From Panagrolaimus kolymaensis (taxonomy: Eukaryota; Nematoda; Chromadorea; Rhabditida; Panagrolaimidae), in the NCBI GenBank assembly GCA_028622995.1, contig JAJQJQ010000036.1, forward strand, positions 2,108,001 to 2,172,000: a stretch of DNA of 64,000 nt. The letters are read 5' to 3'. Made by a program: the position numbers and the translations under genes. This document shows positions 51,653-52,756 of the stretch, piece by piece (position 1 is the first letter of the stretch; every line of letters begins with the position of its first letter). A model generated the notes under the pieces. That model saw nothing but the letters and a program-made list of their open reading frames with translations. It searched no databases and was not told where the DNA came from.

Positions 51653-52756
51653 TTATTTACAAAATGGAGATACTTTTTTTGTAGAATAATCAAAAGCATC
51701 ATAAAAATTTTGGGCCAAACTATCATTTCTGCATGTTTTGCTTATAGCATTTTGGGCATATTCTGCTTTTGATTTCCAGTATTCACATGGATTGCTCTTA
51801 TCAGTGTTGTTCGTTTTGATTTTTTCCACTGGCTTCATGCTTGCTGGGTGCCAATTTTGGGAAAAATTGAGATCTTCAGAATTATCTTCTGTGCTTGCCG
51901 ACAAGACCCGATTGGGGGGCCTAAAATTACGTCTCAAAAACTTAAAAATACCTCGACGCTTGCGTGCGGTCGATGAACAATCCTGCTGTTCACTTTTATA
52001 TTTGCATTGCAGTAAATCACGGGTAACTTCATTTAAACATTTGAAAATATCGTCCGAAACTAAAAAACTATGTTAAGTTTTTTTAGCTTTATTCATAAAA
52101 AAAAGACTAACCATTTTTCAAACATATTTGCTGTAACATAAGCTCACTTAATAATAATCCAACGGAATCATCAAAAGATAATTCAAAAACTTTTACATAA
52201 GTTGAAATATTTAAACCAGTGTTACATATTTTTTGGTTTATCGCCTCCGCCTCCGCCTCCGCCTCCGCCTCCGCCTCCGCCTCCGCCTCCGCCTCCGCCT
52301 CCGCCTCCGCCTCCGCCTCCGCCTCCGCCTCCGCCTCCGCCTCCGGAGGCGGAGGCGGAGGCGTGTAACACTGATTTAAACAACTTTCGGTAAAATTTTT
52401 TCCAAGACATTGAGATTTTTGGCTAATTTTTCTAAAAAATTAGATAGTTACGTTAATTAAACCAGGAATAAATTAACATGAAATTTACTGAATTTTGATA
52501 GTTAAAATGAAAAAAAAATCCCCCTACTTGCAAAGATCTGTATCATAAACAAAAGATCCATTGTTGAATTTTATTAAATCAATTAATAAATTTGGAGAAT
52601 AACAATATTTTAAAGTCTAAAAAATAATTATAACATTATTTGTAAGAGAATTAATTAATAAATTAAATGTTCTACCACTTCACCCCAAAAACCACATTCT
52701 TGTGAATTACCAACATTCAAAAAAGCGAAAATTGAAATAAAAACAAAAGCGTTCAT
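51653..52756 (-). CDS. secreted 12-Cys family, copy 4, with in-frame transposon-derived insert
   Basis: Exons 52756-52676, 52616-52528, 52431-52112 and 52059-51653 give 298 residues, over 100 more than its sisters. The signal peptide MNAFVFISIFAFLNVGNS is followed by QECGFWGEV (CDSRGE is lost). Exon 3 is 320 nt instead of 155, because a 157-bp element plus its 8-bp target duplication lies between CLN and ISTYVKVF. The frame stays open and adds a Cys/Tyr/Pro segment and 17 Glu-Ala pairs. Exon 4 carries a second extra stretch of about 64 residues with a basic patch (RKRRGIFKFLRRNFR), absent from copy 5. Whether it is still expressed is unknown. The closest relative is copy 5, with matching 3' UTR and C-terminus (AFDYSTKKVSPFCK). 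Confidence 0.78.
52217..52373. mobile_element. 157-bp hAT-like MITE built of a GCCTCC hexanucleotide array, inside an exon
   Basis: The ends are inverted repeats CAGTGTTACA / TGTAACACTG, and the element is flanked by 8-bp direct repeats ATTTAAAC at 52209-52216 and 52374-52381. The interior is (GCCTCC)n that turns at CTCCGGAG (about 52341-52348) into a short inverted arm. An 8-bp duplication and CAGTG-type ends fit hAT-superfamily non-autonomous elements. It contains no stop in the minus-strand reading frame of the host exon. Confidence 0.9.

Follow-up and report, generated by a model that had tools for sequence, protein, structure and literature searches.

A hexanucleotide-rich MITE inserted in frame in a predicted coding exon of the nematode Panagrolaimus kolymaensis

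Introduction

Can a short mobile element enter a coding exon, keep the reading frame, and leave behind a gene whose predicted product is simply longer? The question is raised by copy 4 of a small secreted Cys-rich gene in the window, that is, the whole stretch of 64,000 nucleotides of Panagrolaimus kolymaensis DNA that was analysed. A preliminary description, made from the letters of the window, had placed in exon 3 of this gene a 157-bp element with inverted ends and an 8-bp duplication. The element was found to be present there as described, and its reading as a hexanucleotide-rich MITE inserted in frame in a predicted coding exon has since gained strong support, including that of two homoeologs in which the site is empty.

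Structure of the insertion

Gene models built from splice motifs and paralogs gave copy 4 as a four-exon gene on the minus strand, running from 52756 to 51653 and encoding a predicted protein of 298 residues. Exon 1 (52676-52756, minus strand, as are all four) has a signal-peptide-like start and a weak donor, GTGGTAGAA; exon 2 (52528-52616) likewise has a weak donor, CAAGTAGGG; exon 3 (52112-52431) is 320 nt long and holds the element in frame; and exon 4 (51653-52059) includes an extra stretch of about 60 residues common to all three homoeologs of the gene. The element occupies 52217-52373 and is bounded by perfect 10-bp terminal inverted repeats (TIRs), CAGTGTTACA at one end (52217-52226, plus strand) and TGTAACACTG at the other (52364-52373, minus strand), outside of which a perfect 8-bp duplication, ATTTAAAC, stands on both sides (52209-52216 and 52374-52381, neither assigned to a strand), its left copy fitting the pattern nTnnnnAn. 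Between the ends, on the plus strand, an A+T-rich subterminal stretch (52227-52242), which together with the TIR forms a 26-mer, is followed by a pure (GCCTCC)17 array (52243-52344) and its palindromic partner (GGAGGC)3 (52345-52362), for an overall build of CAGTGTTACATATTTTTTGGTTTATC-(GCCTCC)17-(GGAGGC)3-GTGTAACACTG. Tandem Repeats Finder reported 100% matches over the hexamer run, and the 17-fold array shows zero silent changes, as is expected of a young or slipping tract.

Element and duplication together amount to 165 nt, or 55 codons, and introduce no stop into the modelled exon, in agreement with the earlier statement that the frame is kept. The exon-length arithmetic was also reproduced: against 320 nt in copy 4, exon 3 as modelled has 155 nt in copies 3 and 5, and its length is 161 nt in copies 1, 2, 7 and 8. 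In the minus-strand reading the (GGAGGC)3 segment yields Pro-Pro pairs and the long array Glu-Ala pairs, and translation returned the 55 additional residues first proposed, with a Cys/Tyr entry segment, a Pro run, 17 Glu-Ala pairs, and an exit segment containing a further Cys. The insert reads QCYT-P6-(EA)17-INQKICNTGLN, and its end peptides in the predicted protein are QCYT... and ICNTGLNISTYVK.

A mobile family in the genome

The genome searched comprised 265,843,910 bases in 807 contigs. Exact occurrences of the 26-base element end numbered 27, the copy 4 locus included, and at up to 3 mismatches there were 25+20 matches as against 1+0 for the reversed pattern; the 17-base other end occurred exactly 54 times, with 62+73 matches at up to 2 mismatches versus 0+1 reversed. 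The bare 10-mer constitutes weak evidence, since its enrichment is slight (115+111 versus 86+95 reversed), and a partner end accompanied none of the first eight 10-mer sites fetched, all on contig C1. A further view of the family was given by 20 close end pairs picked regardless of content from 100 listed of the 226 10-mer sites: the octamer duplication was exact in 18, carried one mismatch in one, and misfitted in one, and GCCTCC/GGAGGC words were present in all 20.

The genome-wide search for relatives that the preliminary description had proposed recovered, from all fetched loci, 40 copies with a duplication (38 exact), using a script that demanded GCCTCC/GGAGGC words and no more than one mismatch in the duplication. 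Among these, L059-L061, with exact 8-bp duplications, have ends CAGTGTGACA or nearly so and belong to a sister family; without the three there are 37 copies of the element's own family, 35 of which have an exact duplication. Copies lacking a good duplication were L018 and L035 (5 bp shared), L041 (none), and L090 and L099 (degenerate end). Lengths among the copies range from 55 to 512 bp, and the TIRs are exact at both ends in 33 of the 40. The element in copy 4 belongs to a mobile family, and the family has the features of a MITE, being short (55-512 bp), multi-copy (37 copies), bounded by inverted ends, and devoid of transposase coding capacity.

Several related sequences were noted in the course of these searches. 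The sister family, whose ends are CAGTGTGACACGCCTCC, likewise occurs in multiple copies (for example, at C2:4348414), and other long GCCTCC arrays lie at C67:373255-373338 (about 14 units), C34:1868472-1868525 (about 9), and C12:4010296-4010349 (about 9). The ends of another copy of the element's own family are found at C28:772919-773091, some 12 kb away from the C28 homoeolog of the gene; the rough counterpart of that position in the window, at about 40.1 kb, has no matching ends.

Affiliation with hAT elements

The target duplications point to a particular superfamily of transposons. Of the 40 duplications, 29 have T as their second base and 29 have A as their seventh (for either count, p is about 5e-6 with a background of 0.37); when the sister family is left out the figure is 26 of 37 for both. 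The nTnnnnAn pattern is given as the duplication consensus of Ac-family hAT elements (PMC8961557), a consensus that was looked up after the duplication counts had been seen. With an 8-bp duplication of this pattern and short TIRs (10 bp, within the range of 10-25 bp), the family has the characters of the Ac type of hAT.

The hAT dimerisation domain (PF05699) was found at no fewer than 150 places in the genome, that is, at least the 150 that were scored of 216 candidates, all of which matched; the matches fall into sets of identical scores and contain few stops, and 14 control genomes yielded none. Among 100 listed of the 226 ends, no listed PF05699 place lies inward of an end within 9 kb, and one lies inward at 9.2 kb. 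For the hAT element Hermes, BED domains have been described as binding short subterminal repeats (PMC10368747), and by analogy the GCCTCC words may act as subterminal repeats of the Hermes type.

Empty homoeologous sites

The P. kolymaensis assembly has been described as triploid, and as made from HiFi reads (PMC10374039); the genome that carries copy 4 looks triploid here as well. Three homoeologs were compared, namely that on contig C35 (copy 4, with the element) and those on C28 and C59 (the latter locus L069). Identity over the left flank is 92% with C28 and 88% with C59, and over the right flank 87% and 86%, and in both the two flank matches abut exactly at the target site, with a BLAST flank overlap of 8 bases on C28 (subject 1501-1508) and 7 bases on C59. 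A three-way alignment places the octamer once at each empty site, as GTTTAAAT in C28 and as GTTTAAAG, with one base changed, in C59. Both sites are existing sequences and were not made by removing the insert from copy 4; the two homoeologs are natural empty sites.

Length, frame and base composition

The build of its relatives bears on how the frame is kept in copy 4. The closest short relative, the 61-bp copy L041, has the same build with 2/2 hexamers in place of 17/3, a difference of 96 bases or 16 hexamers. It belongs to a linkerless set of 12 copies of 55-157 bp, made up of L041, ten others of up to 112 bp, and the copy 4 element, and in 11 of the 12 the length is 1 mod 3 (the exception being L058, of 66 bp). 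A length of 1 mod 3 plus the 8 duplicated bases gives a multiple of 3, so that the frame is kept on insertion, and because hexamers are gained or lost in steps of 6 it is kept afterwards too. Outside of the linkerless set are L102 (156 bp, with a variant linker) and four copies, 345-512 bp long, whose interiors differ. In the other copies longer than 125 bp (n=29), length plus 8 is 2 mod 3 in 22, 1 in 6, and 0 in a single copy.

The absence of stops has a different origin, and follows from the 71% G+C composition of the element. Three of its six frames are open, as compared with a mean of 3.08 in same-letter shuffles and 0.41 in neighbouring genomic stretches. An unusual freedom from stops was considered as a property of the element and rejected, as the shuffles equal it. 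It is the minimal form that brings the frame rule with it, and the G+C content that accounts for openness; given the two, selection in the copy 4 gene is not needed to account for the kept open frame.

Further copies within genes

A crude codon-score scan was applied to the 40 copies, after which the flanks of seven were read, six in addition to the copy 4 locus, and five of the seven were read as lying inside coding sequence; there may be more among the remaining copies. An open frame runs through the element in two of these five, copy 4 and L087, both in predicted genes; in the other three the gene is broken, by frameshift in L110 and L050 and by a stop inside the element in L091, so that a majority of in-frame coding insertions, as expected of an element resembling the palindromic elements of Rickettsia (RPEs, discussed below), was not found. 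A further candidate for in-frame capture, L085, was rejected on reading as just inside an intron.

The L087 copy (112 bp, 1406-1517 of that locus) adds 120 nt to an exon of an SGTA-like cochaperone gene. The exon matches SGTA_dimer of Pfam with E 0.0076 and 16.5 bits, against a cut-off of 26.8, the match ending at residue 38, three residues before the first codon of the element, and TPR repeats follow downstream of the element (E 3.5e-09). The copy would add an Arg-rich stretch inside an SGTA-like dimerisation domain. Neither a close homoeolog of the gene nor an empty site was found, the spanning search returning mostly element copies among the 40 scored of 135 candidates; the left exon resembles three other places at 77% and the right side other places at 67-74%, and the gene may therefore be a diverged duplicate. 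As for the six gene pieces beside L091, L110 and L050, Pfam gave no family for five and a sub-threshold RQC match for the sixth. The gene at L091 may be "old yellow enzyme-like", a resemblance that Pfam did not bear out.

The host gene and its predicted product

The proteins of copy 4 and its paralogs constitute a nematode family that, by sequence comparison, appears weakly DUF19-like. Three of six paralogs match DUF19 (PF01579) at E<=0.5, with a best E of 5e-05; one paralog scores 17.3 bits against the Pfam cut-off of 23.2, exon 4 of copy 4 scores 13.9, and the whole copy 4 protein gives no DUF19 match. Two queries against a large protein set found no relatives at E<=1, and neither the paralog profile nor the SGTA-like piece of L087 matched the PDB at E<=1. 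The roughly 60 additional residues of exon 4 (51653-52059, minus strand) are absent from the six modelled paralogs and include a basic ARKRRG motif, presumably furin-like, and after it a cationic stretch; as they occur in all three homoeologs, they are older than the element. Also noted were a further copy of the gene, at about 57.2 kb and on the plus strand, outside of the modelled set, and, at 12000-35000, a large multi-exon gene family on both strands with an LILDG...QYE.DPF motif, two scanned members of which had no Pfam match at E<=0.1. In searches of the genome, the SL1 leader sequence, in what we take to be its canonical form, had 38 matches versus 0 reversed, which marks the genome as that of a nematode. 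A 66-base Mi-Tel seed from clade I root-knot nematodes had none, which by itself does not settle whether the host is a root-knot nematode.

The preliminary description had called the protein possibly effector-type, a label that found no support, the host being P. kolymaensis, of a free-living genus, and the gene family only weakly DUF19-like. A study of panagrolaimids describes those that it covers as free-living (PMC10771965). A single-sequence structural model of exon 3, of low confidence (mean pLDDT 62.4, pTM 0.34), predicts a helix over residues 29-71 that covers the Glu-Ala tract, and a guess from their positions is that the two new Cys may pair with each other.

Proposed explanation and alternatives

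The explanation that we favor, at a probability of roughly 0.7, is that a non-autonomous element of the Ac type of hAT was cut and pasted into exon 3 of one of the three homoeologs, duplicating 8 bp. Transposase supplied from elsewhere in the genome would have moved it. The minimal form would have been inserted first, adding 61+8 = 69 nt or 23 codons, and the array would then have grown by slippage in steps of 6, or would already have been expanded in the donor; with a minimal insert of 69 nt and growth in steps of 6, the frame could not be lost, whichever stage expanded. Counting against this explanation, L041, the closest short relative, is itself without a target duplication. Exon 3 would be spliced as in the paralogs and translated, placing in the protein a Pro6-(Glu-Ala)17 stalk flanked by two Cys, one from each inverted repeat; the pair is perhaps bridged, with the stalk projecting as a loop from between two host-fold helices. 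The function of the insert, if any, is probably passive, the insertion being tolerated rather than selected as a new domain.

It is quite possible, if somewhat short of an even chance, that the element is a bystander in a dying duplicate, its frame kept by luck and by its frame-neutral length, and that the gene yields no stable protein. Copy 4 has weak donors in two of its three positions, after exons 1 and 2 (scores of 0.6 and 3.7, versus 4.4-11.0), and a premature TAA lies in exon 1 of the C59 homoeolog, which looks broken, so that the gene may be decaying; the same weak donors are, however, common to the empty homoeologs and hence are not a consequence of the insertion, and all four exons of copy 4 are open with the insert in place. 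That three of the five coding copies break their gene, and that the stop-freedom of the element is no better than that of shuffles, would also fit a bystander. Over 239 codons dN/dS is 0.36 for C35-C28, which tells against a bystander, 0.45 for C35-C59, and 0.47 for C28-C59, which tells for one; for the 49 codons of exon 3 alone the values are 0.57, 0.61 and 0.33, respectively. Silent and replacing changes on the branches, counted without exon 1 and some of exon 4, are 6/12 for C35, 7/10 for C28 and 9/27 for C59, and those on the C35 branch are too few for constraint after the insertion to be read from them. Taken as sequence comparisons, the data fit a gene under past constraint.

Removal of the element from the mRNA, by cryptic splicing or by skipping of exon 3 and with the protein thus unchanged or truncated, is unlikely. 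Internal GT dinucleotides exist, and the element RNA can pair into a G+C-rich hairpin; but donors inside exon 3 reach 1.7-2.6 at best and acceptors 4.4, against 7.9-14.2 for known acceptors; the one pair worked out (donor 107 to acceptor 361 in scan coordinates, 254 nt) would shift the frame, and so would skipping the 320-nt exon. An assembly error that placed the array in the exon is very improbable. A pure hexamer run of 102 bp is admittedly difficult sequence, and the length of the array could be off by a few units, but a perfect octamer duplication and inverted ends surround it, the 26-base end recurs at 26 other places, and the HiFi reads, with a mean of 14,425 bp at 84x (PMC10374039), are far longer than the element.

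Relation to known systems

The nearest analogue found in print is the Rickettsia palindromic element. RPEs are described as mobile palindromic elements of about 150 bp whose insertions in protein genes give in-frame fusions that modify the product, with 44 integrations in unrelated genes of R. conorii and with the frame likewise kept in 11 of 12 homologs elsewhere (PMC10969869). Like RPEs, the elements in copy 4 and L087 are in-frame, stop-free insertions within predicted genes; unlike those bacterial elements, the copy 4 element is a eukaryotic hAT-type MITE, with an open frame in only two of five coding insertions. The Mar element of Drosophila shares with the copy 4 family its short length, non-autonomy and 8-bp duplications, and has 11-bp inverted ends, but it is given as A+T-rich and of the Buster type with an nnnTAnnn target duplication (PMC3517528), whereas the copy 4 family has GCCTCC/GGAGGC words and nTnnnnAn. 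Among nematodes, the Tm1 element of root-knot nematodes is likewise foldback or MITE-like with repeated terminal motifs, and one such element underlies the Cg-1 locus; Tm1 differs in its 9-bp duplications and Mutator-type transposase (PMC3169594). In the asexual nematode Meloidogyne incognita, MITEs are over-represented among polymorphic insertions, some of them inside genes; the MITE insertion described there sits in a 3' UTR, and the passages listed include no in-frame coding capture (PMC8288018).

Both hAT MITEs (PMC3517528) and MITE activity in asexual nematodes (PMC8288018) are well known. Among the listed titles and abstract openings of open-licence papers there was no report of this element family or of a nematode gene with a hAT MITE inserted in frame, nor was a description found there of the build from hexamers, of the length rule, or of an in-frame insertion accompanied by two empty homoeologs. 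A broader and rather doubtful reading would make the family the eukaryotic counterpart of RPEs, a selfish MITE family that is frame-neutral by construction and that, in a triploid asexual animal, adds new stretches to proteins time and again. The parts of this reading, no firmer than the whole, would be GCCTCC/GGAGGC words that are stop-free in all six frames, tunable Pro/Glu-Ala or Arg-rich stretches, some with a Cys pair from the element ends, and spare homoeologs that buffer the trials.

Conclusion

In summary, many transposon-made protein changes have been inferred only long after they took place. P. kolymaensis is kept in culture (PMC10374039), and the copy 4 insertion is testable in the cultured nematode. 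With two empty homoeologs, a minimal relative and a length rule at hand, the first step in the life of a transposon-derived sequence becomes accessible to test by RNA and peptide work.
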